DNA of 64,000 bases from Thalassotalea euphylliae (GTDB lineage: Bacteria > Pseudomonadota > Gammaproteobacteria > Enterobacterales > Alteromonadaceae), in the NCBI RefSeq assembly GCF_003390395.1, contig NZ_QUOV01000001.1, forward strand, positions 2,976,001 through 3,040,000, read 5' to 3'. Below the pieces are notes generated by a model, which searched no databases, was not told where the DNA came from, and saw only the letters and a program-made list of their open reading frames with translations. Each line of letters begins with the position of its first letter. Position 1 is the first letter of the stretch. A program made the translations under genes and the position numbers. Of the stretch, positions 9,114-28,281 are shown one piece after another.

Positions 9114-9129
9114 ATGACCGATCGGTCAA
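9114..9129. promoter_or_regulatory. RutR-like palindromic operator, xdhA/ABC divergent promoter
   Basis: The 16-mer ATGACCGATCGGTCAA has a perfect 14-base palindromic core (9115-9128). It sits between the divergent xdhA operon and the ABC importer, 58 bases before the importer ATG. Related 16-mers occur at 18212, 27293 and 28266. An extra half-site TTGGTCAA lies at 9082-9089. Similarity to the known E. coli RutR consensus TTGACCAnnTGGTCAA and the presence of a RutR-like gene at 27562 make it a likely binding site. Confidence 0.7.
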
Positions 9130-9187
9130 TATTAAGTATTAGGCAATTGACTAATTTTGCAAATCAGTCTGCTACTGGGTGTTAAAC

Positions 9188-10813
9188 ATGAAGAACGAGA
9201 ATCGGCTTTTAATGCAGGGAATTAGCAAACAATACCCTGGCTGCAAAGCTAATGACGATATTGAACTACAAATAAAGCATGGCGAAATTCATGCCTTGCT
9301 CGGCGAAAACGGTGCTGGCAAAAGCACGTTAATGAAAATTCTTTACGGTGTGGTCAAACCTGACCAAGGTGAAATTTTATGGAATGGTCGAGTAGCATCG
9401 ATCAATGAACCTGCTGACGCGCGCGCTTTGGGTATTGGTATGGTGTTTCAACACTTTTCATTGTTCGAAAGTTTAACCATCGCTGAAAATATTGCCTTAG
9501 CGCTCGGTGAGCAAGCGGGTCAACCGGCAACGCTTGCCAGCCGCATCAAAGCAACATCAGAGCGATATGGCATGCCACTCGATCCTGAGCGCCGCATTTC
9601 CACCTTATCAACAGGCGAGCGCCAGCGTGTTGAAATTGTCCGCTGTTTATTACTCGACATTCAGCTACTCATTTTAGATGAACCCACATCCGTTCTAACG
9701 CCACAAGAAGTGCAAGCGCTTTTCAAAACGCTACGTCAACTAAAACAGCAAGGTTGTTCTGTACTCTTTATTAGCCACAAATTACATGAAGTTGCAGAGC
9801 TATGTGACAGCGCCACCATTTTACGCGCTGGCAAGGTCAGCGGGCATTGCTCCCCCAAGCAAGAAACACCTGAAGCCATGGCTCGCATGATGGTGGGTGA
9901 TGACACTCCGATCAGCAATGATAAGCAACGCGCTCAACTAAGTGATGGTATTGATGACTTTGTTAGCGTCAGTGAGTTATCAACAACGCCTGAGGGCTTA
10001 TTTGATATTGCCCTGCAAAACATCAACCTCAGTGTCAAACGCGGAGAAATTGTGGGTATTGCAGGCGTGGCGGGCAATGGCCAAGAAGAGCTATTGAAGG
10101 CGTTATCTGGTGAGCAAACTAATGCTAAATCTTCTGCTATTCGCTTTGGCGGTCAAGTTGTTGATGCCATGTCCCCCCTTAAGCGCCGACGTTTGGGCCT
10201 TGCCTTTGTACCTGAAGACCGCTTAGGGCGAGGTGCCGTGCCAGAAATGGATTTATGCCAAAATGCCTTACTGACCAGTTTTGACCATGGTTTAGTGGGT
10301 AAAGGGTTATTCGACAAAGGCCTACTGAAACAAAATAAGATCAAAGCACTCGCAAACAAAATCATCGACAAATACAAGGTGAAAGCCGCAGGTAACCATA
10401 GCCAAGCAGTGAGCTTATCTGGCGGCAATTTACAAAAATTTATTATTGGCCGCGAAATTGAACAAGCCCCTAAGTTTTTGTTGATGTCGCATCCTACGTG
10501 GGGTGTGGATATTGGCGCTCAAGTCGCCATTCATCAAGCAATTATCAAGCTGCGAGATCAAGGCTGTGCGGTATTAGTGATTTCTGAAGACTTGGATGAG
10601 CTATACAAAATTTGCGATCGCCTTGGTGCTATTTGTGATGGCAAGCTCTCCCCTTTTCTGCCAACAGACGAAGTTCCGCTACCTTTATTAGGCCGTTGGA
10701 TGGCTGGCGATTTTGGCTTGCCAATAGCAGCACAATCGGCAGCACACGTATCTGATGGCAAGGTTGTTCCTTTGCCAACCAAGCCACAAACTTCATCAGG
10801 AGCTAGTTTATGA
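9188..10813 (+). CDS. ABC transporter ATP-binding protein (BMP/nucleoside type, two nucleotide-binding domains)
   Basis: This is the energy subunit of an importer of the nucleoside/BMP family (RnsB, NupA, YufO-like). It has two fused ABC domains. The first has Walker A GENGAGKST, signature LSTGERQR and Walker B LLILDEPTS. The second has a degenerate GVAGNGQEELL in place of Walker A, LSGGNLQK, and MSHPTWGVDIGA. The degenerate second half is normal for this family. I use the ATG at 9188 with a weak upstream TGGGTG; an in-frame GTG at 9179 adds three residues. It overlaps the next permease gene by four bases. Position next to xdh suggests purine uptake; the exact substrate is inferred. Confidence 0.92.
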   Translation: MKNENRLLMQGISKQYPGCKANDDIELQIKHGEIHALLGENGAGKSTLMKILYGVVKPDQGEILWNGRVASINEPADARALGIGMVFQHFSLFESLTIAENIALALGEQAGQPATLASRIKATSERYGMPLDPERRISTLSTGERQRVEIVRCLLLDIQLLILDEPTSVLTPQEVQALFKTLRQLKQQGCSVLFISHKLHEVAELCDSATILRAGKVSGHCSPKQETPEAMARMMVGDDTPISNDKQRAQLSDGIDDFVSVSELSTTPEGLFDIALQNINLSVKRGEIVGIAGVAGNGQEELLKALSGEQTNAKSSAIRFGGQVVDAMSPLKRRRLGLAFVPEDRLGRGAVPEMDLCQNALLTSFDHGLVGKGLFDKGLLKQNKIKALANKIIDKYKVKAAGNHSQAVSLSGGNLQKFIIGREIEQAPKFLLMSHPTWGVDIGAQVAIHQAIIKLRDQGCAVLVISEDLDELYKICDRLGAICDGKLSPFLPTDEVPLPLLGRWMAGDFGLPIAAQSAAHVSDGKVVPLPTKPQTSSGASL

Positions 10814-11925
10814 TCCGCCTGGAAGCCCGTGTTCAGCATTCTACTGTCTGGGGCTATAGTTCACCATTGCTTGCCGTGCTGCTGACCCTGCTCACTGGCT
10901 ATATTTTATTTGCCGCACTTGGCCAATCACCAAGTGAAGCCTTATATACCTTTTTTATCGCGCCAATTGCTGACTGGTATGGCATCAGCGAGTTACTGGT
11001 GAAAACCATTCCTATTTTACTGTGTGCTTATGGCCTAGCATTATGTTTTCGCGCCTCGGTGTGGAATATCGGTGCCGAAGGCCAATTACTGATGGGTGGT
11101 GTCGCCGCTTCGGCGGTAGCAACCTTATTCGTGCATTCCGACAGTATTTGGGCCATGCCGTTAACGCTACTCGCTGGCATTGCAGGCGGCATAGGTTGGG
11201 CAGCGCTGGCCGCCTTTATGAAGTTGCGTTTAAACACCAATGAAATTCTCGTCACTATCATGATGAATTACATTGCGTTGAATATTTTGTTGTGGGCAGT
11301 GCATGGGCCACTTAAAGATCCGGATGGCTTTAACTTCCCTGAAAGCGCCTTGTTTGGTGACAGTACTTTATTACCTGTGTTATTTGCCGACACCCGATTG
11401 CACTTAGGTCTTGTGTTTTGTGCTATCGCGATGGCGCTTAGCTGGCTATTTATTAGTAAGAGTTTTCTGGGTTTTCAAACCCAAGTGTTGGGCCAAGACC
11501 GGTCGGCAGCAAAAATGGCCGGTTTTAACCAAACTAAACTAGTCACCCTAGTGTTGTTAGTTTGCGGTGCCTTAGCTGGTTTAGCAGGAGCAGGCGAAGT
11601 GGCGGGGCCAATTGGTCAGCTAGTCCCGCAAATTTCACCTGGCTATGGTTATGCTGCCATTATTGTCGCGTTTTTAGGGCGCTTACACCCCGTTGGCATC
11701 ACGCTGGCAGGCCTGTTAATGGGGCTCATCTATATGGGCGGTGAAATGGCACAAATTGAGCTTGGTCTGCCCAACGCTATCACCGGAATTTTTCAGGGAC
11801 TTATGCTGTTTTTCTTACTGTCTTGCGATGTATTAATCCGCTATCGCGTCCGCTTTAAACGTTTTGACAAAAGCAACAGCGCAGACAACACCTCGTCTTC
11901 TCTTGCTCCACAAGCTCAGGAATAA
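10810..11925 (+). CDS. ABC transporter permease (nucleoside/base importer, first subunit)
   Basis: This is an integral membrane permease of the YufP/RnsC type (branched-chain permease superfamily). The 371-residue protein has about nine to ten hydrophobic segments. Family-typical stretches are ASVWNIGAEGQLLMGG, NTNEILVTIMMNYIA and the C-terminal AAIIVAFLGRLHPVGI. Its ATG overlaps the ATPase stop (ATGA), and the next permease follows after five bases. It should form a heterodimeric channel with that second permease in the inner membrane. The transported compound is not readable; purine nucleosides or bases are most likely from context. Confidence 0.92.
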   Translation: MIRLEARVQHSTVWGYSSPLLAVLLTLLTGYILFAALGQSPSEALYTFFIAPIADWYGISELLVKTIPILLCAYGLALCFRASVWNIGAEGQLLMGGVAASAVATLFVHSDSIWAMPLTLLAGIAGGIGWAALAAFMKLRLNTNEILVTIMMNYIALNILLWAVHGPLKDPDGFNFPESALFGDSTLLPVLFADTRLHLGLVFCAIAMALSWLFISKSFLGFQTQVLGQDRSAAKMAGFNQTKLVTLVLLVCGALAGLAGAGEVAGPIGQLVPQISPGYGYAAIIVAFLGRLHPVGITLAGLLMGLIYMGGEMAQIELGLPNAITGIFQGLMLFFLLSCDVLIRYRVRFKRFDKSNSADNTSSSLAPQAQE

Positions 11926-11930
11926 CCGTT

Positions 11931-12857
11931 ATGGATATCGAACTAATTACCAATATTTTATATGCCACTATTCGCACCGGTACACCACTACTCTTGGTTG
12001 CCTTAGGTGAAATTATCTGTGAAAAGAGCGGCATACTGAACTTGGGCCAAGAGGGCATGATGCTACTCGGCGCCGTTGCTGGCTTTATTGCCATGTATCA
12101 CAGCGACAGCTTTTTAATTGGCTTTGGCGCTGCGGCGCTGACGGGGGTGCTAATATCGCTTGCCTTTGCCTTTATTGCGCTGCATTTAAACGCTAGCCAA
12201 GTAGCCGCAGGCCTTGCCCTAACTATTTTAGCAACCGGCTTGTCCGCATTTATTGGCGCCGATTACGAAGGTAAAACCGTGACCGCCTTACCTGCATTAA
12301 CCATTGACGGCTTAGCTGCTATTCCAGTTATTGGTAAAGCCCTGTTTGCACAAGACGCCATTGTCTATCTCAGTTGGGTGTTAGTGATTCTCGCCTACCT
12401 GTTTTTTAAGCACCACAGAGCTGGGCTTGCTGTCCGTGCTGTGGGTGAAAACCCAAGTGTTGCCAGCAACTTAGGCTTACCAGTAATGAGTATTCGTTAT
12501 TTAGCTGTAATGTTCGGCGGCGCGCTAGCCGGTATCGCAGGCGCCTACTTATCACTGGCTTATACCCCACTTTGGACGGAAAACATGACCGCAGGTCGCG
12601 GCTGGATTGCGCTGGCCTTAGTGGTATTCGCCAGTTGGCGAGTTGAGCGCGTAATGCTTGGCGCTTATTTGTTTGGCTTTGCCAGCCTTATGCACTTGGT
12701 CGCACAAGGCTTAGGACTTTCAGTTGACGGTAATTTACTTGCCATGATGCCTTACCTTGCCACGTTAGCTGTGCTGATCATTCTCAGCAGAGATCCACAA
12801 AAACTGCGGTTATTCGAGCCGATGTCGCTAGCGAAACCTTGGCATAAAGGTCACTAG
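11931..12857 (+). CDS. ABC transporter permease (nucleoside/base importer, second subunit)
   Basis: This second permease, 308 residues, is of the YufQ/RnsD type. It has the conserved SGILNLGQEGMMLLGAVAGF segment near residue 40, then NASQVAAGLALTILATGLSA and a C-terminal AGRGWIALALVVFASW that contacts the ATPase in this family. About eight hydrophobic helices are apparent. It follows the first permease by five bases and precedes the binding-protein gene by 93 bases of A-rich sequence without a clear terminator, consistent with one transcript for all four genes. Confidence 0.92.
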   Translation: MDIELITNILYATIRTGTPLLLVALGEIICEKSGILNLGQEGMMLLGAVAGFIAMYHSDSFLIGFGAAALTGVLISLAFAFIALHLNASQVAAGLALTILATGLSAFIGADYEGKTVTALPALTIDGLAAIPVIGKALFAQDAIVYLSWVLVILAYLFFKHHRAGLAVRAVGENPSVASNLGLPVMSIRYLAVMFGGALAGIAGAYLSLAYTPLWTENMTAGRGWIALALVVFASWRVERVMLGAYLFGFASLMHLVAQGLGLSVDGNLLAMMPYLATLAVLIILSRDPQKLRLFEPMSLAKPWHKGH

Positions 12858-12950
12858 TGCTTCGCTCTGCTTAGCCCAAATGCAAAAAACAAAACAGAAC
12901 AGAACAAAAAATTTAAAAAATAAAAATTTCACTACAATGGAGCAGTAAAA

Positions 12951-14042
12951 ATGAAAAAAGTGATGAAGAAGTTAGCCGTAGCCCTGAGCATTGGTATTGG
13001 GTTAAACGCCAGCTTAATGTCGAGCAGCGCTATGGCTGCAGACGACAACGTTAAAGTAGGCTTTGTTTATGTTAGCCCAACCGGAGAAGCAGGTTGGACA
13101 TATACACACGACGAAGCTCGCCTTTATTTAGAGGAAAAATTTGGCGACAAAATCGAAACTAGCTTTGTCGAAAATGTTGCCGAAGGTGCCGATGCACAGC
13201 GGGTGATCACTCAAATGGCGAAAAGTGGTCACGACTTAATCTTTACCACCTCATTTGGCTATATGAACCCAACGATTAAAGTGGCAAAGCGCTTTCCGAA
13301 AGTAAAATTTGAACATGCAACAGGTTATAAACGCGCTAAAAATGTTGGCACCTATTTCGATCGTATTTACGAAGCCCGCTATTTAACCGGTGTTATCGCT
13401 GGTCATATGAGCAAAACTGATACTATAGGTTATATCGGTGCCTTTCCTATCCCTGAAGTCGTACGTGGTATTAATGCCTTCACCCTTGGTTTACAATCAG
13501 TTAAACCAGACGCCAAAGTTAAAGTGGTTTGGGTCAATAGCTGGTTTGACCCAGGTAAAGAGCGCGAAGCTGCCGATAGCTTGATTGATCAAGGTGCTGA
13601 TGTAATTACTCAACACACCGACTCACCAGCGCCATTACAAGCCGCTGAAGCCGCAGGGATTTACGCTATTGGCTACCATTCAGATATGAGTGAATACGGC
13701 AAAACTGCTCACTTAACTGCGGCGGTGCATAATTGGAAAGAGTTCTATGCTAAGCGCGTGCAACAAGTGTTAGACGGCACGTGGCAGTCTGAAGACGTTT
13801 GGCGTGGAATGGATGCAGATATGACCCAATTAGCACCACTAAGCTCAGCGATTCCAGATGATGTAAAAGCCAAAGTTCAAGCATTATCAGCACAAATCGC
13901 CGAAGGAAAACTCCATCCGTTTACTGGCCCTATTGTTAACCAACAGGGCCAACAGATATTGGCAAATGGGCAAGTTATGGATGATAACGCCCTGCGTAAA
14001 ATGGACTACTATGTTGCTGGCGTTGAGGGCAAACTGAAATAA
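12951..14042 (+). CDS. BMP/PnrA-type periplasmic substrate-binding protein
   Basis: This is the solute-binding component of the importer encoded just upstream. Residues 1-29 form a standard signal peptide ending at AMA|AD, with no lipobox, so the protein should be free in the periplasm, unlike the lipoproteins of spirochaetes. The mature part matches the BMP family: VGFVYVSPTGEAGWTY, FTTSFGYMNPTIKVAK, YIGAFPIPEVVRGINAF, VWVNSWFDPGKEREAA and DVITQHTDSPAP. The WVNSWFDPGKE motif is typical of purine-compound binders of this group. The AATGGAGCA ribosome site fits the ATG. A strong terminator follows at 14092. Confidence 0.93.
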   Translation: MKKVMKKLAVALSIGIGLNASLMSSSAMAADDNVKVGFVYVSPTGEAGWTYTHDEARLYLEEKFGDKIETSFVENVAEGADAQRVITQMAKSGHDLIFTTSFGYMNPTIKVAKRFPKVKFEHATGYKRAKNVGTYFDRIYEARYLTGVIAGHMSKTDTIGYIGAFPIPEVVRGINAFTLGLQSVKPDAKVKVVWVNSWFDPGKEREAADSLIDQGADVITQHTDSPAPLQAAEAAGIYAIGYHSDMSEYGKTAHLTAAVHNWKEFYAKRVQQVLDGTWQSEDVWRGMDADMTQLAPLSSAIPDDVKAKVQALSAQIAEGKLHPFTGPIVNQQGQQILANGQVMDDNALRKMDYYVAGVEGKLK

Positions 14043-14091
14043 CTTCGGTAGTAATTTCGCTTAAAAAAGTGAAATAAAAAACACGAAATAG

Positions 14092-14121: not shown

Positions 14122-14146
14122 ATTTCATATTTTTCAGCGCTTAGCA

Positions 14147-17006: not shown

Positions 17007-17243
17007 AAATTAACAAGCGCGAAGCAATAAAGACTATTGGTTAAATTTACACCATCATAGCCTACACCTTTACCCTAATTGAAGATCAAAATGAGCTGAC
17101 TCGTTAGGCGTACCGTATTTAGTTCGATACCCAGCTGAGCATTTCCTAGTCTATTCACTTCTCGCATTGATAATCAGAGGATGGCGGGTTCAGGGCGTAG
17201 CCAACAACGAAAACAGCGAAATATCAAATTTTAGGTGAACATT

Positions 17244-17901: not shown

Positions 17902-18211
17902 AACATCTTTAACGACATAAACCTAACCCGATAACTTTTCGTTTACTCGACAATTAGCCGTTAACCACAAACAAAATAATAGAATTTAATCACACATGGA
18001 AAGTGTCTTTCCACTATAAACATAGCTAACCCACTCATTAGCAATAACTTTTCAAAATCTGTAGCTGACCAAATTGATGCAACTGACGAATTTACGCACA
18101 GCGCTAGTGCAATTATTCTACAAATCGTGAGTTGATGATTATGCAAAGGTATGAGTCAACACATGGTCAAGCAAGTTAACACGTTGTTTACAAAAGATTT
18201 TAAAATTGTTC

Positions 18212-18227
18212 CTAACCGATCGGTTCA
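18212..18227. promoter_or_regulatory. RutR-like operator upstream of the TonB receptor
   Basis: The 16-mer CTAACCGATCGGTTCA contains the perfect palindrome AACCGATCGGTT and shares the CCGATCGG core with sites at 9114 and 27293. It lies 78 bases before the receptor ATG. An additional half-site is at 18164-18170. Confidence 0.6.
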
Positions 18228-18304
18228 TGTTGGCTCAGGTGTTGCTCTGCTCATCAAAAGTAATGAAAACAAACTTTTGATATTAAAAATAAAAAGGAAC
18301 TACC

Positions 18305-20602
18305 ATGAGCACTGAGTTACCTAGATTTAAACGTTTACCTATTGCCACGGCGATAATGGCGAGTTTAGCAGCAAGCTCGATACCTAGCGCCTATGCAGAC
18401 AACTTAGATGATGACGCAGGGATCGAAGAAATTATCATCGTTGCGGAAAAGCGAAATGAAAGCCTGCAAGATGTATCACAAGCGGTAACCGCTGTGACAG
18501 GTGAAGATTTACTGGATAAAAATATTCTTTCATTTGTTGATCTTAGCGCTATTACTCCCGGTGTCACCGTAGCGAAAAACGAAGGTTTTAAAACGATTAT
18601 TTCAATTCGCGGTGTTGGTAACGAAGCCAACCAAAATATCGTCGCGAACCCGTCAGTTTCCTATCATATGGACGGTATTTATATCGCTTCACCTTTCGCC
18701 CTACAAACTGACTTTATTGATGTTGAGCTGATTGAGGTGCTGCGTGGTCCACAAGGCACTTTATTTGGTCAAAACTCGACAGGTGGTGCCATCAATGTGA
18801 TCAGTAAGCGCCCTGAGTTAGGCGAAACCAATGGTAAGTTTGACTATACCTTTGGCGAACATAGCCTGAGCCAATTGCGCGGCTCTGTAAATATACCGAT
18901 TGGTGATAGCGCCGCGCTGCGCACTTCAGTATCTAAATACGATCGCGATGGCTTTTCAAAAAACGTACTTAACGGACAAGACTTGGATGACGCCGATAAT
19001 CTCACCATTAAAACCGATTTCTTCTGGCAAGCCACGGATAACACAAACCTTCGCTTGATTGGTCAATTCTTCGAGGCTGATAGCAATGGGGCGGCAATTA
19101 AAGGTATCGACGATCCGACCCCCGGTGCGCGCAACCTAGCCCAAGATACTGAATCAAAATTTGAGTTAGACTCAAAACTTGTTGGCCTGATCGTCGAAAG
19201 TGATTTGGGCTTTGCGACCGCAAAATATTTAGGTAGCTGGCAAGAAGATGAAATTTTAGTGCAACGTGATAACGACCGCCACGCCTACAGCACGAACCCT
19301 GAATACACGATTAGCGCCTTCTTACCCGAAATTAATAATGTTGAAACCTTCACCCATGAAATTAACTTAATTTCCCATGAGCCAGCTTTTGGCAAGCTCG
19401 ACTGGATTGTTGGCGCTTTCTATTTGGATACTGATATCGAAGTGACCATACGTGAAGAGTTAGATGCTAATGGTAACGGTGTGTTAGATGGCTATGTGCC
19501 GTCTTTCCCTGACGTATTTGCTGGTGATGTTGGCTTTATTTCGGATGCCACGCCAAGCCGTGAATCGTTTTCAATATACGGTCAAACAACCTATAACTTT
19601 AACGACACGACACGCTTAATTACCGGTTTACGCTATACCAAAGACGATGTTGAAAGTGCGGTTTCTAACTTCTTTGCGCCTGAACCCACCTTAATTGAAG
19701 CGTCGGTTGAAGAAGTAACAGGCCGAATTGCTGTCGAATACGATATTAGCGATGATATTATGGTTTACGGCTCTTACACACGTGGCTTTAAACCGGGCGG
19801 TAGTAACTTAACCTTTGGTTTTGAACCAGGCGAATTCGACTTTATTAGCGGCGCTATTGATAACTCTGAACCTTTGGTATTCCCTACATTTGAAAATGAA
19901 ACGATTAACGCATACGAGCTTGGGATTAAAGCCGAACTACTGGATAACCGACTGCGCACTAACTTAGCGACCTTCTTCTACGATTATCAAAACCTACAAT
20001 TCCAAGCAACCGATCCTAATGCCTTCCAAGGCGGTGTGGCCAATATTCCTGAAGCGGAAATTACCGGTTTAGAGTTAGAGTTGATTGCGCTACTTACCGA
20101 CGATTTGATCTTAGACGTGAAAATGTCGGCATTAGACTCAGAAATTACACAAGATTACTTCGCCCTTGATAATGTAGTAGCCGATGGCCTTGGTTTTGTC
20201 CCTGGTGACGATGTATTGCGAGCTGAATTAGCTGAAAATGTTAAAGGCAACGAGCTTGCTAAAGCACCTGGCTTTACCATGGACGCTAGCCTAGAGTACA
20301 CCACTAATATTGCTAGCCACGAATTCCGCTCGGTACTGCAATACACTTACCGCGGTGAATTTGAGCAACGAATTTTCAACAATCCAGCGATTGATCAAGT
20401 AGATGATTACGAGGTGGTTAACTTACGATTTTCACTTGATTTAGATGACGACACATGGGGCTTTGACTTGATGGCGACCAATGTTTTTGACAAAGACGGT
20501 GTTAACTCACGAATGTCTGATGTTTTTGGTGTTAACGCCACAGGTGAAGAGCTGATTGCGCCGCGCCAAGTGATGGCGAGAGTAAGATATAGTTTTTACT
20601 AA
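18305..20602 (+). CDS. TonB-dependent outer-membrane receptor
   Basis: This receptor would import a scarce substrate across the outer membrane using TonB-ExbBD energy. The 765-residue protein has a signal peptide (about residues 1-31, ending SAYA), a TonB-box-like EEIIIVAEKR at about 40-49, and a plug domain with ITPGVTV, ISIRGVGNE, VELIEVLRGPQGTLFGQNS and GGAINVISKRP. A long beta-barrel ends in VRYSFY with a terminal aromatic residue. It stands between purine-catabolism genes and its promoter carries the RutR-like palindrome, so a purine or ureide substrate is inferred. Sequence alone does not fix the ligand; siderophore or carbohydrate uptake is possible. Confidence 0.93.
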   Translation: MSTELPRFKRLPIATAIMASLAASSIPSAYADNLDDDAGIEEIIIVAEKRNESLQDVSQAVTAVTGEDLLDKNILSFVDLSAITPGVTVAKNEGFKTIISIRGVGNEANQNIVANPSVSYHMDGIYIASPFALQTDFIDVELIEVLRGPQGTLFGQNSTGGAINVISKRPELGETNGKFDYTFGEHSLSQLRGSVNIPIGDSAALRTSVSKYDRDGFSKNVLNGQDLDDADNLTIKTDFFWQATDNTNLRLIGQFFEADSNGAAIKGIDDPTPGARNLAQDTESKFELDSKLVGLIVESDLGFATAKYLGSWQEDEILVQRDNDRHAYSTNPEYTISAFLPEINNVETFTHEINLISHEPAFGKLDWIVGAFYLDTDIEVTIREELDANGNGVLDGYVPSFPDVFAGDVGFISDATPSRESFSIYGQTTYNFNDTTRLITGLRYTKDDVESAVSNFFAPEPTLIEASVEEVTGRIAVEYDISDDIMVYGSYTRGFKPGGSNLTFGFEPGEFDFISGAIDNSEPLVFPTFENETINAYELGIKAELLDNRLRTNLATFFYDYQNLQFQATDPNAFQGGVANIPEAEITGLELELIALLTDDLILDVKMSALDSEITQDYFALDNVVADGLGFVPGDDVLRAELAENVKGNELAKAPGFTMDASLEYTTNIASHEFRSVLQYTYRGEFEQRIFNNPAIDQVDDYEVVNLRFSLDLDDDTWGFDLMATNVFDKDGVNSRMSDVFGVNATGEELIAPRQVMARVRYSFY

Positions 20603-20714: not shown

Positions 20715-21998
20715 CTATTCGCTAAAAACGTTTAACGCCATGGTGTTTAAGGATTGATATAACACCGCTAAGGCGTTAATAACGTCACCGTCAATCACCG
20801 CTTCATCTGGGTGATGGCTAATACCACCGGGGCTGCGGATAAACAGCATACCCACAGGGCAAATATCGGCAATTGCCATGGCATCATGACCAGCACCAGA
20901 AGGCAGCACAGCAGCATAGTCAGTTACTTGCTGGCATGCCTTGGCAAATAACTGAATAATCTGATCATCACATTGCACCGCAGGGGCTGCATGCGTCCAC
21001 TGCCAGTTTAGTGTTAACTGACGTTTTTCAGTAATACCAGACGCAGCTTTTTCAATATCAGTGACCAGCCTTACCAGTGCAGCATCTTCCTGCGCTCGTA
21101 TATCGATACTTAATTCTGTTAACCCTGCAATAACGTTAGTCGCCCCCGGCTTAGCAGCAATACTACCTATAGTCGCCACTTGCCCTTGTTGGCTACTTTG
21201 CGCTGCTAATTTGGCCAACTGCTCAACAGCAAGCGTAAACTCTGCCGCAGCAGCAAGGCTGTCTTGACGCAGATTCATTGGCGTTGTCCCTGCATGCCCC
21301 GCTTGGCCTATAAATTCAATGACCGCACGTTTGGCGCCAGCAATTGCGGAAACAACACCTAGCGGTTGCTGATGCGCTTCCAATACTGGGCCTTGCTCGA
21401 TATGAGCTTCCCAATAACCTATCACTTCTTCAGATGACAGCGCTGCCCCTTGCTCAGCTGCTTGCTCAGGATCTAAACCGAAATCCAACATGGCTTGGCG
21501 CATACTGATGCCTTGGCTGTCTTGGAGCGCTAGCCAATTCGGATCAAACTGGCCAGCGAGTGCTTTTGAGCCAATTAAGGTTGTGGCAAAGCGTGTCCCC
21601 TCTTCGTCGCAAAAACCGACAATATCGAGATGAAATGGCAAATTAAGCTCGTTTTGCTGAGCTAAAGCTGCAACCTCAACCCCTAACATCACACCTAAAA
21701 TTCCATCGTAGGCACCAGCATAGGGCACAGTATCTAAATGTGAGCCAATGATCAGGCGTTTAGCATTGGGGTTAGCACTGGTAAGTCTGCCCCATTGGTT
21801 ACCAACCGCATCTTGCCATGTTTCCATCCCCGCTTCACTCATCCACTCGGCAACTTGTTGATTGCACGCTTGGTGCTCTGGGGTTAAATACTGGCGCAAA
21901 ATACCATCGTCAAGCTCACTTATTTGGCTTAGCTGATGGCAACGCTCAATCGCGCGCAGGCCATATTGGCTGACGAGCTGCGTAGACAAATCATCCAT
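20715..21998 (-). CDS. allC: Allantoate amidohydrolase (M20 family)
   Basis: This metal-dependent hydrolase converts allantoate to ureidoglycine with release of ammonia and CO2. The 427-residue protein has M20/AllC motifs in order: GSHLDTVPYAGAYDG, CDEEGTRF with the bridging acid residues, EAHIEQGPVLE, GQAGHAGTTPM and PSGAGHDAM, then SPGGISHHPDEAV near the end. These favour allantoate amidohydrolase over N-carbamoylase or ureidoglycolate relatives, although single-residue specificity cannot be settled here. It is the last gene of the leftward operon starting at the amidase; the next upstream gene encodes the aminotransferase that uses ureidoglycine. Start ATG at 21998 follows a GGGAGAGG ribosome site. 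Confidence 0.88.
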   Translation of the reverse strand: MDDLSTQLVSQYGLRAIERCHQLSQISELDDGILRQYLTPEHQACNQQVAEWMSEAGMETWQDAVGNQWGRLTSANPNAKRLIIGSHLDTVPYAGAYDGILGVMLGVEVAALAQQNELNLPFHLDIVGFCDEEGTRFATTLIGSKALAGQFDPNWLALQDSQGISMRQAMLDFGLDPEQAAEQGAALSSEEVIGYWEAHIEQGPVLEAHQQPLGVVSAIAGAKRAVIEFIGQAGHAGTTPMNLRQDSLAAAAEFTLAVEQLAKLAAQSSQQGQVATIGSIAAKPGATNVIAGLTELSIDIRAQEDAALVRLVTDIEKAASGITEKRQLTLNWQWTHAAPAVQCDDQIIQLFAKACQQVTDYAAVLPSGAGHDAMAIADICPVGMLFIRSPGGISHHPDEAVIDGDVINALAVLYQSLNTMALNVFSE

Positions 21999-22025
21999 TT
22001 ACAACCTCTCCCTAGCTTTGCTGTT

Positions 22026-22073
22026 CATGCCTTCGCTGTCCATGCCTTCTCTGTCCATGCCTTCACTGTCCAT
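22026..22073 (-). repeat. 15-base tandem repeat between the aminotransferase and allC genes
   Basis: On the minus strand the sequence ATGGACAGTGAAGGC is repeated three times with single-base changes, followed by a fourth partial copy beginning ATGAACAGC. It covers the aminotransferase stop codon. Read in one frame it encodes a short peptide (MDSEG, MDREG, MDSEG, MNSKARERL) that stops at TAA immediately before the allC ATG. Confidence 0.9.
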
Positions 22074-23289
22074 GGTAGTAGGCTAATGCAGCCAAAGTCG
22101 CTTCACCGCTCGGGCCTTTATAGCCATTGGCCTGCAAGCAGGCATCTAAACAAGAGAGTGTTTGCAGTACCGTATCTTTGCGAGCGTTATAGCCCATAGT
22201 GCCAATTCGCCAAATTTTGCCATGCAGTGGGCCAAAGGAAGTGCCAATTTCAATACCAAAATCATTAAGCATTTGATTACGCACCTGATCGCCATTTACT
22301 TCGCTAGGAATATAAACGCCAACCACATTATTCATTTTGTGATTAATATCGCCGAAAACTTTTAACCCTAAGGCTTGAACACCAGCAAGCATCGCGTCGC
22401 CATGGAGCTTATGTCTGGCGACACACTCATCAACTCCTTCTTCTAACACAATACGAGCGCACTCAGAGGCACAATAAAGCATGCTGGTCGCTTCAGTATG
22501 ATGATTTAGGCGCTCTTCGCCCCAGTAATCCATGATCATACCCAGGTCAAAATAATTGGAGCGAATAAAGGGCTCAATGCCGTCTTGATGATCTGCCGTG
22601 CGAATACCAGCTTCGACTTTTTTGCGTTGGCGTATCCAGTCAACACACTTGTCACTGAGCGTGATGGGCGCAGAGCCAGAAGGCCCGCCCAAACACTTTT
22701 GTAACCCGACAGTTAGGGCATCCACTTGCCACTCGTCTGCTGGTAAGTCATTACCGACAATCGATGCGGTGGCGTCACAATAGAACAAGACGTCGTGCTG
22801 CTGACAAATAGCGCCGATATCTCCCAGTGGTTGGTTCATCGTTGTCGATGTATCACCTTGCACCATGGCGAGCACACGTGGTTGCACCCGCTTAATCGCC
22901 GCTTCAATTTGCTCAGGTTGAAATACTTCGCCCCACGCCACCTCAATAGTGTGTACGTCAGCTTGTGCGCGTGTCGCTATTTCTGCCAGCAAATGGCCAA
23001 AACGGCCCATAATCGGCACTAACACTTTATCGCCCGGTCTTAGCATCGAAAGTAATGCTGACTCGATACCTGCCCTTGAAGTGCCGTCAATTAAAAACGT
23101 CCACTCGTTGTTGGTTTTAAATATTTGGCGATAACGCGCCATGGTTTCGTTCATAAACCCTGTCATCGCTGGGTCGTATTGACCAATTAGCTGTGCTGAC
23201 ATGGCTCTCAGTACCCTTGGGTCTGCGTTAATCGGCCCTGGGCCCATCAGCAAGCGCTGCGGCGGATTGAGTGTTTGTTTATCTGTCAT
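22063..23289 (-). CDS. (S)-ureidoglycine-glyoxylate aminotransferase (PucG/HpxJ-like)
   Basis: This PLP enzyme is expected to transfer the amino group of ureidoglycine to glyoxylate, giving oxalurate and glycine. The 408-residue class V aminotransferase begins with LLMGPGPINADPRVL, has a DGTSRAGIESALL phosphate-binding region, the cofactor Asp in YCDATASIVGNDL, and the PLP lysine in LTVGLQKCLGGPSGSAP. The C-terminal half includes NNVVGVYIP and KIWRIGTMGYNA, typical of PucG-like proteins. Serine-glyoxylate and alanine-glyoxylate aminotransferases are close relatives, but its place directly upstream of allantoate amidohydrolase supports the ureidoglycine role. Confidence 0.85.
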   Translation of the reverse strand: MTDKQTLNPPQRLLMGPGPINADPRVLRAMSAQLIGQYDPAMTGFMNETMARYRQIFKTNNEWTFLIDGTSRAGIESALLSMLRPGDKVLVPIMGRFGHLLAEIATRAQADVHTIEVAWGEVFQPEQIEAAIKRVQPRVLAMVQGDTSTTMNQPLGDIGAICQQHDVLFYCDATASIVGNDLPADEWQVDALTVGLQKCLGGPSGSAPITLSDKCVDWIRQRKKVEAGIRTADHQDGIEPFIRSNYFDLGMIMDYWGEERLNHHTEATSMLYCASECARIVLEEGVDECVARHKLHGDAMLAGVQALGLKVFGDINHKMNNVVGVYIPSEVNGDQVRNQMLNDFGIEIGTSFGPLHGKIWRIGTMGYNARKDTVLQTLSCLDACLQANGYKGPSGEATLAALAYYHGQ

Positions 23290-23319
23290 TATCCTTCTCC
23301 TAGCTAATCCTAACTAAAG

Positions 23320-24156
23320 CTAGTTACCTAGCGCTTGCATTAACATACGAATACCGGTCAGCATTAACACCACAGCAAATGCGCGTTTTAACTGCTTTGG
23401 CTCAAGCTTACTACCCAGTTTTACACCAATAGGGGCACATAAAATGGTGAGTGGAATAATCAGCAGAAAAGCGGGAATATTGACTAGGCCAAAGGTGCCA
23501 AGTGGCGCATCCACTGGCGTTTGTGCGACCGCAAGTAAGGTGAGTACGCCCGGTAGCGCAATGATTAAACCAAATACTGCAGCAGTGCCGACGGCAACAT
23601 GAGCCCGTACATTAAATGCCGACAGTAAAGGTACGCCAATGGTGCCACCGCCAATACCTATCATCACGGATAATCCACCCACGGTTGAGGCCATAATCCC
23701 CTGCCCAAAGCGACCCGGTAGCTCATTTTTTAATGCCGGTGCACCCGCGCGAAACAGCATATTTAAACTCACCATAATCGCGATAGCTGCAAACATTACG
23801 GTTAGCGCCTGACCTTGCACATAGTGTGCGAACAAGCTGCCAACAATCGCCATAGCAAGAATAAAACCTGTCCAGTATTTAACAATATCAAGGTCAACAT
23901 TACCTTTAGCGTAATGTGAACGAATAGAGGAAACTGAGGTTGGTACTATGGTCGCAAGTGAGGTTGCCGTTGCAATCATCATGGCTGATTCGGCACTAAC
24001 CCCAAAACCTTGTAGTAAAAAATAAAGCACTGGCACAATAACAATGCCACCGCCAACACCAAATAAGCCCGCTAATAAGCCAGCAAAAACACCTGTTGCC
24101 ACCAAAGCGACCATAATCGGCCATTGATTGGCCAATTCATTTAACAACTCTGTCAT
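23320..24156 (-). CDS. TauE/SafE family permease
   Basis: This 278-residue protein has about eight hydrophobic helices and the two TauE/SafE signature repeats: LAGLFGVGGGIVIVPVLYF near residue 30 and SVMIGIGGGTIGVPLLSAF near residue 165. The family moves small organic anions such as sulfite, sulfoacetate or related acids. Here it is flanked at short distance by the aminotransferase and the HpxW-like gene, so it probably moves an intermediate or product of ureide breakdown, for example oxalate, oxamate or glyoxylate, or a pathway substrate. Direction and substrate are inference. Confidence 0.85.
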   Translation of the reverse strand: MTELLNELANQWPIMVALVATGVFAGLLAGLFGVGGGIVIVPVLYFLLQGFGVSAESAMMIATATSLATIVPTSVSSIRSHYAKGNVDLDIVKYWTGFILAMAIVGSLFAHYVQGQALTVMFAAIAIMVSLNMLFRAGAPALKNELPGRFGQGIMASTVGGLSVMIGIGGGTIGVPLLSAFNVRAHVAVGTAAVFGLIIALPGVLTLLAVAQTPVDAPLGTFGLVNIPAFLLIIPLTILCAPIGVKLGSKLEPKQLKRAFAVVLMLTGIRMLMQALGN

Positions 24157-24192
24157 TTATTTTCCTAATTTTTACCTAATTTTTTTCGTAAG

Positions 24193-25761
24193 TTATTTAT
24201 CGACACAACCGACAAGCGCGGCGCCATCTGAGCGGGGATCTGAAGCTGCTGCCAGCTCAGTGTCACTATCTAAAATTGCACCAGCATGACCCATCATTTC
24301 ATTGTTATCGTCTACAGATTGCCATTTGTGTTTTAAGCGATCCAATTCAGTACCCAGCTCAGAGGCCAGTGTAAGTTCCACTTTTAAGTTAGTACTAGTA
24401 TCACCCCAAGTGCGGCCTAACAACCAACGCGGCGCAGCAACGGCTTCATTAATGGTACGATTTCGCCATGTATAATCGGTAAATACTTTTGCTTGGGTTT
24501 GCGGCTGACCTTCACCGCCCATAGTGCCATACGCTAGTCGCCTGCCATCGTGATAGCGGGCAAACGCTGGGTTTAGGGTATGCGCTGGCTTCTTATTTGC
24601 CGCCAAACAGTTAGTGGTTGTGCTGTCTAAAGAAAAACTAATGCCACGGTTATTCCACGTAAAGCCACCGTCTTTCATCACAACGCCTGAGCCAAATTCC
24701 CAGTAAATGCTTTGGATAAAGCTAACCATTTGACCACGCTGATCTCGCGCCGCTAGCCACACGGTATCGCCCGGTGAAGCATTAAACGGCCAAGCTTCCG
24801 CTTTTGACATGGAAATATTATTCGCCAGTTCGCTAATTGCCGGGGCTTGCAATACTTGCTGATAAAGCGCAGTTACCGCATTGGGGTCTGCCCACAGTTG
24901 CGGACGTAAATGGAAGCTCTGCTTAGTAGCCTCAACAATTAAGTGTAACCAATCAATATCTTCACTCGCTTGACTGCGCAATTGATCAACAATCGACAAA
25001 ATAATTAAAGAGTGAATACCTTGTGTTGGCGCAGGCAGGTTATAACAATCAACCCCCTGTAAACTGGCTTTTAGCGGTGTGACCACTTGCGCTTGTGTCG
25101 CATTAATATCAGCCAACTTGATTTGGCTGCCAGCAGCCGCCAAATCAGCGGCAAAGCTCTGTGCTAATTCTCCTTGATAAAATGCTTGTAAGCCATTTTT
25201 TGCAAGATATTCAAACGTATTGGCTAACGCAGGGTTGGTAAAATGTTCCCCTTGTTTTAACGCTAAGCCATTAGGTTCATATAGCGCTTTAAAAGCATCG
25301 TTGCGTTTATCAACCGCATATAATTTATCGCTTGCCGTTTGTAAGCTAGTGGTGACCTCAAACCCTGAACGCGCCGCAGCAATTGCCGGTGCCAGAATTT
25401 CACTCAGTGGCAACTTGGCATTTTCGTCAGCATTGAGCGCTGCTTGCCAGCCACTAATGGTGCCTGCTTGGGTAATCGCACTTAGCCCGCCGCGCTCTGG
25501 AATAGCGTCAAACTCTTGGTAAACTGCTAGGTTTTGGCAAGCAGCGCCGCAGGCATCAATGGCAATTGGTGCATCGCTGCCAGGGTTGTCAATGAGCCAA
25601 AAACCATCGCCACCGATAGAGTTCATATGGGGATAAACGACGCTAATGGTCGCCGCTGCAGCAACCATAGCCTCGGTAGCCGTGCCACCTTGACGTAGAA
25701 TCGACATGCCCGCTTCTGTTGCTGTTTTATGCGGGGCGGTAAACGCTATATTCTCTTTCAT
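24193..25761 (-). CDS. hpxW: Gamma-glutamyltransferase-family hydrolase, HpxW-like oxamate amidohydrolase
   Basis: This 522-residue Ntn-hydrolase belongs to the gamma-glutamyltranspeptidase superfamily. HpxW of Klebsiella, from the same superfamily, hydrolyses oxamate to oxalate and ammonia at the end of the urate pathway. Visible are MNSIGGDGFWLID near the N-terminus, a candidate nucleophile Thr in SPGDTVWLAA near residue 331 where self-cleavage would occur, and YGTMGGEGQPQTQAKV near residue 410. No signal peptide is seen, unlike periplasmic glutathione hydrolases, which supports a cytoplasmic HpxW role. Neighbouring aminotransferase and allantoate amidohydrolase genes strengthen the call; glutathione hydrolase activity cannot be excluded. 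Confidence 0.75.
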   Translation of the reverse strand: MKENIAFTAPHKTATEAGMSILRQGGTATEAMVAAAATISVVYPHMNSIGGDGFWLIDNPGSDAPIAIDACGAACQNLAVYQEFDAIPERGGLSAITQAGTISGWQAALNADENAKLPLSEILAPAIAAARSGFEVTTSLQTASDKLYAVDKRNDAFKALYEPNGLALKQGEHFTNPALANTFEYLAKNGLQAFYQGELAQSFAADLAAAGSQIKLADINATQAQVVTPLKASLQGVDCYNLPAPTQGIHSLIILSIVDQLRSQASEDIDWLHLIVEATKQSFHLRPQLWADPNAVTALYQQVLQAPAISELANNISMSKAEAWPFNASPGDTVWLAARDQRGQMVSFIQSIYWEFGSGVVMKDGGFTWNNRGISFSLDSTTTNCLAANKKPAHTLNPAFARYHDGRRLAYGTMGGEGQPQTQAKVFTDYTWRNRTINEAVAAPRWLLGRTWGDTSTNLKVELTLASELGTELDRLKHKWQSVDDNNEMMGHAGAILDSDTELAAASDPRSDGAALVGCVDK

Positions 25762-25815
25762 TGTTATTTCTCATAGTTTAATGCTTTGCCAGCCAAGCAA
25801 CTAAGGTCTACGAAG

Positions 25816-25855
25816 CCTTAAGCTCAAAACCTTAAGCTCAAACCTTAAGCTAGTA
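25816..25855. repeat. 13-base imperfect tandem repeat (CCTTAAGCTCAAA)
   Basis: Three adjacent copies beginning CCTTAAGCT occupy the gap between the amidase stop and the HpxW-like start, followed by a degraded fourth (CCTTGAACTAGCT). A related pair occurs at 58791-58813. Confidence 0.85.
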
Positions 25856-25881
25856 CCTTGAACTAGCTAGCTTGACTGGCC

Positions 25882-27090
25882 TTACTTACTAAGATCGCAA
25901 GCAAGGTTGAGTAATGTTCGATCGCTATTGGCTGCCATAAGTAGCGAATAGCCATAAGGTGCTAACGATTCACTATCGTTTTGCGCAGGCAAATTACTAT
26001 CGACTGGTATAGATATATCAGGCAAGTGCACCTGCGCAGCGCCAGACAATCCAGCCATGGCTGTTAACGTGAGTATTTTTGCGCGCAACGCACTGGTGTC
26101 AGCGCCAAGCTTGGGAGCCACCGTAGGTGTTGTCGGTAAAAATAGCGCACTGCTTGACGTTAGCTGTTGCATCACCTTTTGCCAGCGTTGTTGCACCTTC
26201 TTAGCTTGCGCTTCTTCAGCTGCCGTTAGCGCTAGCGCCATTTCAAAGCGCGCACTTATTGCTGGTGCGAAATGAGCACTAAAATCAGGCGATAAACTCG
26301 TTAGCCATTGTTCATGTGTACGAGCGATTTCGCGCCCTTGTAAAATGCGAAAAGCATCGGCAAGCTCGTCCAATATGCCTGTATCGGCAATATCAAATTC
26401 CCGAACCTTGGCAAAATAAGGGACAATTTCATCTAACTTATTACTGAGCGCGTTCGCTAGCTCTGGCTCAACCAAATCGAAAAGTGACTGACAAACCAAC
26501 AACTCTTCCACTTTATAAATAGGCTGCTTGGGCAACAAAACATTGCCAACCATAGACAGTAACTCTGCGCTATTGGTTAGCCAGCCTGTCGTGTCAAATG
26601 CTGGCGCCAGAGGTAATAAGCCCTGAACGCTAATAACACCATGACTTGGGCGAATGCCATATAAGCCACAATAGCTGGCTGGCACGCGAATAGAGCCGCC
26701 AGTATCAGTACCTAAACCGATATCCGCTAAATCAGCCGCAATGGCTGCCGCAGAGCCCATGCTGGAGCCGCCACAGCTATGACCTGCTAGTTTCGGGTTT
26801 TGAGCAGCGCCGTAATGATGGTTATTTCCCTCTAGGCTATACGCTAATTCATCAGTATGCGTAAAACCAACAAACTGACAGGCTTGCATCATCAACTTAT
26901 TCACACTATCGGAAGTTTCTGTTGCCGCTAGCGCTTGGCGAAACCACTCTGGGTTACCAGCGCTATTTTTATGTCCCTGAACCGTAAATAAGTCTTTAAC
27001 GGCAAGGCGTAATCCAGCCAGCTCCCCTTTATCACGCGCTTGCCAACCTTTGGGGCCATGATTGCAGAAAATTGCCGAGTCCTGCTTCAC
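25882..27090 (-). CDS. Amidase (amidase-signature family), possible oxalurate or ureide hydrolase
   Basis: This 402-residue amidase-signature enzyme has the Ser-cisSer-Lys triad: Lys in LAVKDLFTVQG near residue 32, the glycine/serine loop SCGGSSMGSAAAIAA, and the nucleophile region GLGTDTGGSIRVPASYCG near residue 131. It is short for the family and lacks the extra C-terminal domain of allophanate hydrolase AtzF. It heads the operon with HpxW-like, permease, aminotransferase and allantoate amidohydrolase genes. Klebsiella hpx loci also carry an amidase (HpxY) near HpxW. Hydrolysis of oxalurate or another ureide is plausible, but the substrate is not shown by sequence. Confidence 0.8.
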   Translation of the reverse strand: MKQDSAIFCNHGPKGWQARDKGELAGLRLAVKDLFTVQGHKNSAGNPEWFRQALAATETSDSVNKLMMQACQFVGFTHTDELAYSLEGNNHHYGAAQNPKLAGHSCGGSSMGSAAAIAADLADIGLGTDTGGSIRVPASYCGLYGIRPSHGVISVQGLLPLAPAFDTTGWLTNSAELLSMVGNVLLPKQPIYKVEELLVCQSLFDLVEPELANALSNKLDEIVPYFAKVREFDIADTGILDELADAFRILQGREIARTHEQWLTSLSPDFSAHFAPAISARFEMALALTAAEEAQAKKVQQRWQKVMQQLTSSSALFLPTTPTVAPKLGADTSALRAKILTLTAMAGLSGAAQVHLPDISIPVDSNLPAQNDSESLAPYGYSLLMAANSDRTLLNLACDLSK

Positions 27091-27292
27091 TGTAATGTTA
27101 TTCCTTTTATTTTTCTTTTAATGAACTTTTACCGCAGTGCTTATACCTGCAACTTGCTACCTGCTATCAGCTTAACGCGTTTAAGTTTGGTAGAAGTGGA
27201 GTAAAATAAATTATTAACTAGCTGGCCTTATTGGCCAGCCTAGCGTTTATATCGACTAAGTACTGCAAGTCTAGTGCCATAAAACGACATTC

Positions 27293-27308
27293 TTATCCGA
27301 TCGGTCAA
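27293..27308. promoter_or_regulatory. RutR-like operator upstream of the amidase-hpxW operon
   Basis: On the plus strand this is TTATCCGATCGGTCAA; on the minus strand it reads TTGACCGATCGGATAA. It has a full TTGACC half-site and the shared CCGATCGG core. It is about 200 bases before the amidase start, so the promoter probably has a long leader. Confidence 0.6.
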
Positions 27309-27510
27309 GATTAGGGGCGTAATGAAAATTTACCCTAAAACCCACTGAGAAAAAACAACCAATTTACGTGTTTTTACTCACCAATTTGGTGCTTTTGCAC
27401 CTTAATGATCAGATTTTTTGAAACTTGTCGTTTAAGAGTAATGCCTAGCGTATAGGTCACAAGAGGATTTGATTTATGAGGGAAAAGGCTATATGAGCAA
27501 CTAAAATCAT

Positions 27511-27546
27511 AAAGCGCCCACTAGTGGCGCTTTTGCATTTTTTTTT
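27511..27546. terminator. Hairpin with T run next to the RutR-like gene 3' end
   Basis: AAAGCGCC and GGCGCTTT form a stem with a seven-base loop. A nine-T run at 27538-27546 favours rightward termination, although the leftward RutR-like transcript also meets this stem 30 bases after its stop, followed by TTTATGATTTT. No annotated rightward gene precedes it. Confidence 0.75.
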
Positions 27547-27561
27547 GAATTTGTTGAATTT

Positions 27562-28209
27562 TTATACCGAGTCAGGCATTGCTAAACCAATGCCGTTAAT
27601 AATGATTTTGGCGACAGAAGCGGTTATCTCATCAATATCACTTTCTTCGTATTCAAGCTTGTTTTGCAACAGCAAAACCTCTGCTTGGAAGTCGGCATAA
27701 TATTGTGTGCTTGCCCAGATGGTAAACAATAAATGTACGGGGTTAACTGCCTGCATTTTACCGGCATCTATCCATGCTTGAAAAAGCTGACACTTAGCAC
27801 GGAACCAAGGGCGGTTTTTATCTCGCATGTAGTCTTGCAAACAAGGAGCGCCACGAAGGATCTCTGAAGCGAACAAACGAGACTGCATGGGTTGATGAAT
27901 CGATAAGGCAATTTTACTGCGAATATAGTGATACAGCACTTGCGCCGGGTCATCATCAACGCTGGCGTTATCTAAGCCGATATTCCAGGTTTCAATAATG
28001 CCATTGAGCACTTCTTCATAAAGATTGTCTTTATTTTTAAAGTAATAAAGCACATTGGCTTTGGCTACCCCTGCTTCGCTGGCAATCATGCTCATGCTGG
28101 CACCGTCGTAACCCGATTGCGAAAACAGTTTTTCTGCAGCAGCGAGAATTAGCTGCTGATTCTTTAATCGAGTAACTTCCTTTTTATTTTGCTTTTCTCG
28201 AATTGTCAT
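27562..28209 (-). CDS. RutR-like TetR family regulator
   Basis: This 215-residue regulator has a TetR helix-turn-helix (ILAAAEKLFSQSGYDGASMS to AGVAKANVLYYFKNKDNLY, residues 20-65). Its C-terminal domain closely resembles RutR of E. coli: SRLFASEILRGAP, GKMQAVNPVHLLFTIWASTQ followed by YYADF. RutR binds uracil or thymine and controls pyrimidine and purine genes. The conserved pocket-forming WASTQxYADF segment supports sensing of a nucleobase. The gene stands beside the purine operons, and a RutR-type palindrome at 28266 precedes its start, suggesting autoregulation. Whether the ligand is a pyrimidine or a purine catabolite is open. Confidence 0.87.
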   Translation of the reverse strand: MTIREKQNKKEVTRLKNQQLILAAAEKLFSQSGYDGASMSMIASEAGVAKANVLYYFKNKDNLYEEVLNGIIETWNIGLDNASVDDDPAQVLYHYIRSKIALSIHQPMQSRLFASEILRGAPCLQDYMRDKNRPWFRAKCQLFQAWIDAGKMQAVNPVHLLFTIWASTQYYADFQAEVLLLQNKLEYEESDIDEITASVAKIIINGIGLAMPDSV

Positions 28210-28265
28210 TATTAGCTTTGTATTCTCTTTTCTTTTTAAAATGTAGCGTTATTGCTCTTGCTTTC

Positions 28266-28281
28266 TTAACCATTTGGTCAA
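28266..28281. promoter_or_regulatory. RutR-like operator upstream of the TetR gene (autoregulation)
   Basis: TTAACCATTTGGTCAA differs from the E. coli RutR consensus TTGACCAnnTGGTCAA at one defined position. It lies 57 bases before the regulator start codon and is the closest match to the classical site in this window. Confidence 0.7.

Follow-up and report, generated by a model that had tools for sequence, protein, structure and literature searches.

A putative RutR-type switch paired with sigma-54-like promoter elements at a purine catabolism locus of Thalassotalea euphylliae

The analyzed DNA, a 64,000-nucleotide stretch of the genome of the marine bacterium Thalassotalea euphylliae (contig NZ_QUOV01000001.1, positions 2,976,001 to 3,040,000 of the forward strand; hereafter the window), hosts a locus for purine catabolism together with the gene of a regulator related to RutR of Escherichia coli. 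Four 16-bp palindromes, considered here as its operators, are located at promoters of this locus, and those preceding target operons are tightly paired with sigma-54-like promoter elements. This pairing represents the main addition to a preliminary description of the locus; the finding of a second RutR-family gene in the same genome is also new. The features are listed below with their window coordinates and strand.

27562..28209, minus: regulator, TetR family with a YcdC/RutR-type C-terminal domain, 215 amino acids
28266..28281, minus: operator at the regulator promoter, TTGACCAAATGGTTAA, 57 bases before the regulator ATG, without sigma-54-like element
27293..27308, minus: operator of the amidase operon, TTGACCGATCGGATAA (minus strand)
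27264..27279, minus: sigma-54-like -24/-12 element TGGCACTAGACTTGCA of the amidase operon, 13 bases downstream of the operator
27377..27412, minus: two NtrC-like sites with 3 and 4 mismatches, located 85 and 104 bases before the amidase operator
9114..9129, no strand assigned: operator shared by the divergent xdhA (minus) and ATP-binding cassette (ABC) transporter (plus)
9095..9110, minus: sigma-54-like element TGGTATGGGTTGTGCA of xdhA, 3 bases downstream of the operator
18212..18227, plus: operator preceding the TonB-dependent receptor, kept in the same-genus genome G301
18231..18246, plus: sigma-54-like element TGGCTCAGGTGTTGCT of the TonB receptor, 3 bases downstream of the operator
18095..18111, plus: NtrC-like site with 3 mismatches, located 117 bases before the TonB operator
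395..8999, minus: gene row from xdhA to urate oxidase
7377-8999, minus: xdhA (over the NCBIfam cut-off; the set TIGR02963/TIGR02965/TIGR02964 covers xdhA/xdhB/xdhC)
4994-7396, minus: xdhB (over the cut-off, same set)
3901-5001, minus: xdhC (over the cut-off, same set)
3404-3904 and 3054-3407, minus: two small genes, 5-hydroxyisourate hydrolase and OHCU decarboxylase, recognized by eye without family call
1660-3138, minus: guanine-deaminase-like gene, named by eye without family call
395-1660, minus: PuuD-type urate oxidase (PF06181 Urate_ox_N)
9179..14042, plus: ABC transporter with ATPase, two permeases and a BMP/PnrA-type binding protein, divergent from xdhA
18305..20602, plus: TonB-dependent receptor (family call)
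25882-27090, minus: amidase, first gene of the minus-strand row 20715..27090
24193-25761, minus: gamma-glutamyltransferase-like (HpxW-like)
23320-24156, minus: TauE/SafE
22063-23289, minus: class V aminotransferase
20715-21998, minus: allantoate amidohydrolase

The four 16-mers quoted in the preliminary description (9114, 18212, 27293, and 28266) are all present, and their placement before gene sets of the locus or before the regulator holds, with the correction that the one at 9114 lies between the divergent pair of xdhA and ABC transporter. Judged by gene spacing, the row from amidase to allantoate amidohydrolase probably forms one operon, the Hpx names of its genes being presumptive and given by analogy. 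The regulator gene is located upstream of this row and purF farther beyond. No rut pyrimidine genes are found beside the regulator, its annotated neighbors being purine, transport, and housekeeping genes.

The regulator belongs to the TetR family, YcdC/RutR branch, with both domains exceeding their Pfam cut-offs (PF08362 TetR_C_3 “YcdC-like”, 153.6 bits, cut-off 25; PF00440 TetR_N, 62.7 bits, cut-off 24). Its likeness to RutR including the WASTQxYADF region had been pointed out before and is borne out by a gapless alignment with E. coli RutR over residues 17-207 (RutR chains, 131 bits) and by the presence of WASTQYYADF. The RutR equivalog cut-offs are not reached (TIGR03613, 186.7 vs. 368 bits; PRK15008, 149 vs. 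230 bits).

The core CCGATCGG occurs three times in the 64 kb (9118, 18216, and 27297), once at each of the three named operons. ACCGATCGGT is present twice in the window with 0.02 occurrences expected, and also only twice in the whole genome (4.36 Mb), both at this locus, with 10 occurrences of the same letters read backward. For E. coli RutR the consensus is TTGACCAnnTGGTCAA. The loose RutR pattern TTGACC-N4-GGTCAA with up to three mismatches was dropped as evidence, being near chance within the window (33 occurrences vs. 21.6 by chance, standard deviation 4.5; 2 of 100 shuffles reach 33). As loose and genome-wide counts show little or no excess, the case rests on close matches, their positions, and their conservation.

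Conservation in relatives had been set beforehand as a test of the proposed regulon, and the palindromes were found to be kept where the same operons occur. Orthologous loci were available from six outside genomes, i.e., Colwellia echini, Pseudoalteromonas sp. P1-25, two Thalassotalea, Pseudocolwellia sp. AS88, and an incomplete Enterobacterales metagenome-assembled genome (MAG); single loci and genomes are given below by L and G numbers, respectively. Sites at the regulator, the amidase row, and xdhA were found in all six. Each locus has one regulator site with the centre TTTT or TTTC, and amidase-row and xdhA sites with a GATC, GAGT, or GCTC centre. Across the relatives, 17 of 20 target operators carry GATC at the centre vs. 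none of eight regulator operators; the non-GATC target centres (GAGT or GCTC/GAGC) belong to xdhA of C. echini and to xdhA and amidase of Pseudoalteromonas. The regulator-site class is named non-GATC rather than G-free, because TTTC has a G on one side. Within the genus, the comparison was made with G301, leaving out a second, near-identical genome (G300); all four sites are kept there, the regulator site with an ATAA centre. The preliminary description had attributed the differing centre of the autoregulatory site to drift of the target motif. This does not hold, since the same split between GATC and non-GATC centres across six of six orthologous loci and G301 shows that it is no recent drift.

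The distance from regulator site to start codon amounts to 59 bases in L052, L053, L055, and L056 and 51 bases in C. echini (script-chosen start). In Pseudoalteromonas, xdhA and the regulator are located on separate contigs; xdhA adjoins a xanthine permease, and the site between these two genes is the only match of this genome with at most two mismatches. Regulator, XdhB, and the HpxW-like gene co-occur in the same five of seven genomes of the genus. C. echini and one Thalassotalea genome likewise have sites at TonB receptors, these being non-orthologous and of about 23% identity to that of the window. Orthologs of the window receptor were not detected in the six outside genomes at E <= 1e-60, in a search run without positive control (G301 has one of 94%). 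A second half-site, noticed by eye 40 bases into the xdhA promoters of the window and C. echini, was rejected as a candidate, being absent from the other five aligned promoters.

The sigma-54 consensus consists of GG-N10-GC with TGGCAC/TTGC-like flanks. In the alignments of xdhA and amidase promoters, GG and GC are kept downstream of the operator, and both a strict pattern, (T/G/C)GG-N10-GC(A/T), and the weights of a graded score were chosen after viewing these alignments. At a fixed gap to the operator, the strict pattern is found in 19 of the 20 target promoters, with a background of 1.8% in random 30-base stretches from the same loci; within 40 bases of the eight regulator operators it is found in none. 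The gap between operator and element amounts to 3-5 bases at xdhA and TonB promoters and 11-13 bases at amidase promoters, a 3-base gap being common to the window xdhA promoter and seven other xdhA promoters. The graded score was tested on 22 non-regulator sites, i.e., 17 of the 20 targets and five further sites. A score of at least 12 was reached by 16 of the 17 targets and one of the five further sites (L053 17937, gap 39), the background being 4.3%. It is reached by none of the 14 further places matched in the own genome with up to three mismatches; five of these are intergenic by open reading frame calls, and no purine gene beside them was recognized by eye. Counted outside the 20 targets are second amidase sites of L053/L054 (11571 and 11557) and L052 (11447), the sites at 17937 and 17906 of L053/L054, the adenosine-deaminase-like site of L034 (16920), and the ABC direction of 9114; a scan of all of these but L052 11447 revealed no sigma-54-like element at the fixed gaps. 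The target promoters match the description of sigma-54-dependent promoters, conserved in the orthologs, from which their use by the respective polymerase is predicted. For the regulator promoter, the left half-site TTGACC may in most orthologs represent a -35 box, as judged by eye, with a TA-rich -10 about 16 bases further on.

From the computed sites, their conservation, their adjacency to sigma-54-like elements, and the co-occurrence of regulator and genes, we infer binding by the regulator, repression rather than activation, its ligand, the use of sigma-54, and NtrC as the activator. We consider it likely that a RutR-family repressor dedicated to the purine locus gates NtrC/sigma-54 promoters, with nitrogen shortage and a purine signal both being needed. 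A regulator dimer would occupy the 16-bp palindromes, i.e., at its own gene one with a non-GATC centre and no sigma-54-like element, and at the targets those with a GATC centre, which immediately precede the -24 element of a predicted sigma-54 promoter. Reckoned from the gaps, the region covered by the operator would extend from about -45 to -30 at two of the targets, xdhA and the TonB receptor, and from about -55 to -40 at the amidase operon. Since the operator abuts the -24 element, the bound repressor may hinder the RNA polymerase-sigma-54 complex or, alternatively, its contact with NtrC by blocking the loop. A purine or breakdown product fitting the mostly kept uracil-type pocket would release the repressor; xanthine or urate are the simplest candidates, because both carry the uracil ring that the kept residues would hold. 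The operons would then fire solely under nitrogen shortage, when NtrC is active, and in the presence of purine.

Several observations weigh against this proposal. The GATC-centred 16-mer is not enriched genome-wide, having fewer matches than its backward control in each of six other genomes and in the own genome, where TTGACCGATCGGTCAA with up to three mismatches is found at 16 places vs. 47 for the backward pattern. The only match of C. echini with at most two mismatches (L211) is not located at a recognized purine gene, and those of L219, L220, and L227 lie at genes that were not recognized as purine genes by eye; this inspection took in these four and left out two in G297. Regarding the promoters, the MAG amidase promoter (L056) lacks a sigma-54-like element as the single miss of the 20, and so does the ABC-transporter side of the 9114 operator. 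The element counts are neither independent nor blind, because the promoters share descent and the pattern was set post hoc. No NtrC-like site with up to three mismatches was found within 250 bases of seven xdhA promoters, and a sigma-70 scan of 27050-28450 listed no promoter over the regulator operator. Finally, uracil is itself a possible ligand, because its contacts are mostly kept.

The last of these points leads to the alternative that survives best. The same regulator and sites may still respond to uracil or thymine, a pyrimidine sensor over purine breakdown coupling both nucleobase pathways, which we regard as unlikely. In RutR, uracil is held by stacking of W77 and W167, by Q171, by Y97 through water, and by Q179' from the other chain (PMC10891134). 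According to the gapless sequence alignment, these residues correspond to W75, W165, Q169, Y95, and E177 of the regulator; thus, four of five contacts are kept, including W77, W167, and Q171, and the cross-dimer contact is altered from Gln179 to Glu. Furthermore, none of the 63 non-redundant family members deviates at W167 or Q171, irrespective of the neighboring genes, and the E. coli protein responds to uracil (PMC10891134). On the other side, E177 is found in all sequences of a set of three and the exchange in all seven rows of the window clade, compared with none of 16 rows with pyrimidine or rut neighbors. Pyrimidine genes are absent among the genes annotated at 395-31419, and the second RutR-family gene of the own genome (L031 9776-10408; hereafter the paralog) is the better candidate for a pyrimidine sensor, given its proximity to a pyrimidine nucleoside phosphorylase. 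The exchange of Q179 to E was rejected as a marker for purine in general: nine of 34 purine-neighbor rows have E and 25 keep Q.

Extension of the analysis to the family puts the purine connection into a broader frame. In an order-level survey of 295 genomes, a homolog at E <= 1e-30 was detected in 92, with more than 60% identity in two besides the own genome. A collection scan using the alignment of three orthologs confirmed at least 419 relatives, and the 80 loci kept out of these comprise the six orthologs at 67-72% identity and 74 relatives at 43-49%. The tree was calculated from 63 non-redundant sequences thinned from 179 and groups the window protein and its orthologs in a clade of seven rows (support 100/100), in which the MAG is counted twice (L035 and L056) and one Thalassotalea was thinned out. 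Sorted by neighbors, 57 of 178 loci carry one or more purine-catabolic labels and 62 are labelled for purine uptake or salvage only (8-oxoguanine deaminase, xanthine permease, and adenosine deaminase; mostly Pseudomonas). A further 23 have pyrimidine labels and 12 rut, with 24 being unlabeled and none combining purine and pyrimidine labels; labels were assigned by similarity to references, several of which were named by family calls. The preliminary description had suggested that a RutR relative has here become the local controller of purine degradation. The RutR-family regulator and the conserved sites at purine operons stand, the local and new character of this control does not: the neighbor counts speak against it, and members with purine neighbors sit in several parts of the tree, so that purine control is not one recent invention.

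Upstream of the 178 family homologs, 63 RutR-like sites with at most two mismatches were found vs. three for the reversed pattern. In the clade labelled PYD, 17 of 31 sites adjoin a sigma-54-like element at 4-5 or 12 bases (background 4.1%), as do five of 18 sites of the Alteromonad purine clade (4.4%) and one of five in the “other PYD” group. None of the sites in the rut, Pseudomonas, paralog, L036, L049, L176, and Vibrio-like groups is located beside such an element. The motif is not established in the Pseudomonas group, where 21 sites show no excess over 25 in the control, nor in the L040 group, which has no site.

The own genome encodes NtrC (over the family cut-off), and NtrC-like sites with up to three mismatches to the consensus occur within 250 bases upstream in seven of 17 regions in comparison to a background of 7.4%; pairs of them about 21 bases apart are found at the amidase promoters of L052-L055. 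Several operators lie between such sites and the promoter, which would also fit a regulator acting as an activator, or in a dual manner, by aiding NtrC or polymerase at the sigma-54 promoters. We judge this rather improbable, as TetR proteins are mostly repressors. E. coli RutR represses rutAG and rutR, its activation of carAB being indirect (PMC10891134).

A methylation-dependent variant of the switch is doubtful to a higher degree. Here, the GATC centres would be functional Dam sites, rendering binding methylation-dependent at the sigma-54 promoters and not at that of the regulator itself. The distribution of centres described above agrees with it, as does the presence of GATC in only one of 137 sites with at most two mismatches in the other clades (some of the 137 being chance matches), and a Dam gene exceeds its family cut-off in the own genome. 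The three target sites with GAGT or GCTC/GAGC centres argue against it, and a common centre may simply be inherited. If true, purine scavenging would be governed by a methylation-gated switch, possibly one that is phase-variable or linked to replication.

Likewise very improbable is a binding of the palindromes mainly by the paralog, or by both proteins. The paralog is surrounded by genes for alkaline phosphatase, an endonuclease/phosphatase-like protein, outer-membrane proteins, and the pyrimidine nucleoside phosphorylase. RutR-type sites with mostly A-flanked centres (L031 10498, 10792, 14322, and 17759) precede the outer-membrane proteins and the phosphorylase, and the locus looks like a regulon for the use of extracellular nucleic acids. 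Both groups share the half-sites TTGACC/GGTCAA, and the regulator-promoter site of the window (ATTT centre) resembles the A-NN-T sites of the paralog. However, in intergenic DNA of the loci fetched, the position adjoining CC is occupied by G in 18 of the 28 half-sites counted for the window clade (from 14 sites, with three in the control; window and L054 left out) and by A in 26 of 34 for the paralog clade, as well as in 31 of 36 for the Alteromonad purine clade. In addition, the sites are retained in C. echini, Pseudoalteromonas, and the incomplete MAG, where a single RutR-like protein each was detected (E <= 1e-20), and in the two genus members that possess the paralog alone, neither xdhB nor HpxW was found at the applied thresholds. 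As a general reason for the GATC centre, insulation from the paralog is weakened, three of the six outside genomes being without a second RutR-like protein at the same threshold. Residue 42, which we take to correspond to Arg28 of TetR, was considered as reader of the near-centre base and found partial support only: A accompanies Q42 in 84 of 104 half-sites, but S42 is associated with G within the window clade and predominantly with A within that labelled PYD.

That the palindromes are chance or sites of an unrelated factor is hardly credible given the exact core confined to the locus, the conservation, and the pairing with sigma-54-like elements, even though the loose pattern is barely above chance in the window and the 16-mer shows no genome-wide enrichment.

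Compared with E. coli RutR (YcdC), the preferred repressor model shares the domain family, the gapless alignment, the mostly kept uracil contacts, and, regarding the rutA/rutR operator, a 16-bp palindrome with ACC/GGT-type arms. It differs by controlling purine instead of pyrimidine genes, by the GATC target centre, by Q179 being replaced by E, and by a score under the equivalog cut-off. XdhR of Streptomyces is a TetR regulator of xanthine dehydrogenase and, compared by description and not by sequence, resembles the window system in the TetR-type control of xdh genes. The Klebsiella hpx system (HpxJ, HpxK, HpxW, and HpxY) comprises, by the same kind of comparison, a similar allantoate-to-oxamate enzyme set, under GntR- and LysR-type regulators that are, unlike the window regulator, not of the RutR family. 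The E. coli rutA operon is listed as a sigma-54/NtrC target (PMC8743547), a likeness to the window targets; the distance from operator to sigma-54 element is reckoned as 64 bases there in comparison to 3-13 bases here. RutR regulons in RegPrecise have a TetR-family RutR and taxon-specific motif substitutions, spanning 68 genomes with an average of 10.9 genes per genome (Leyn et al. 2016, PMC5343134); unlike the purine locus of the window, they are labelled “Pyrimidine catabolism”, and the portion of that source drawn on here names no purine regulon of RutR. Likewise, none of the open-access papers listed by searches on these subjects describes a RutR-family purine regulon in its title or abstract opening, RegPrecise and subscription papers being outside this scope.

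The established role of RutR is the sensing of pyrimidine use, and much of its family sits beside purine genes in the sampled loci. Operators at most one or two helical turns away from sigma-54-like promoters are a feature of the window clade, a pyrimidine clade, and part of another purine clade, suggesting a simple and testable rule, namely that nitrogen limitation and nucleobase are both required. Residues 42 in the DNA-binding domain and 179 in the pocket provide entry points to a change of target, perhaps also of ligand, within one fold.

Some minor observations concern the gene content of the locus and its orthologs. The TauE/SafE membrane protein (23320-24156) is found with 80-85% identity beside HpxW-/HpxJ-like genes in six of six orthologous loci and is possibly a carrier of a purine breakdown product. 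Between ABC transporter and TonB receptor (14147-17738), genes for a TlpA/AhpC-like thioredoxin, a DsbD-like protein, and DUF4174 are located, the same as in G301, and a tandem 8-bp repeat (ctagttat) lies at about 17843-17900 between the DUF4174 gene and the receptor. An RraA-like aldolase directly follows the regulator in orthologous loci (L056 6650-7132, PF03737; L226 2265-2762, by eye); at this position of the window, no open reading frame of at least 100 amino acids is listed. In C. echini, the region beside the purine locus (L034 15503-20000) contains a nucleoside-hydrolase-like gene (by eye), an adenosine-deaminase-family gene (PF00962), and a TonB receptor, the latter two being preceded by RutR-type sites.

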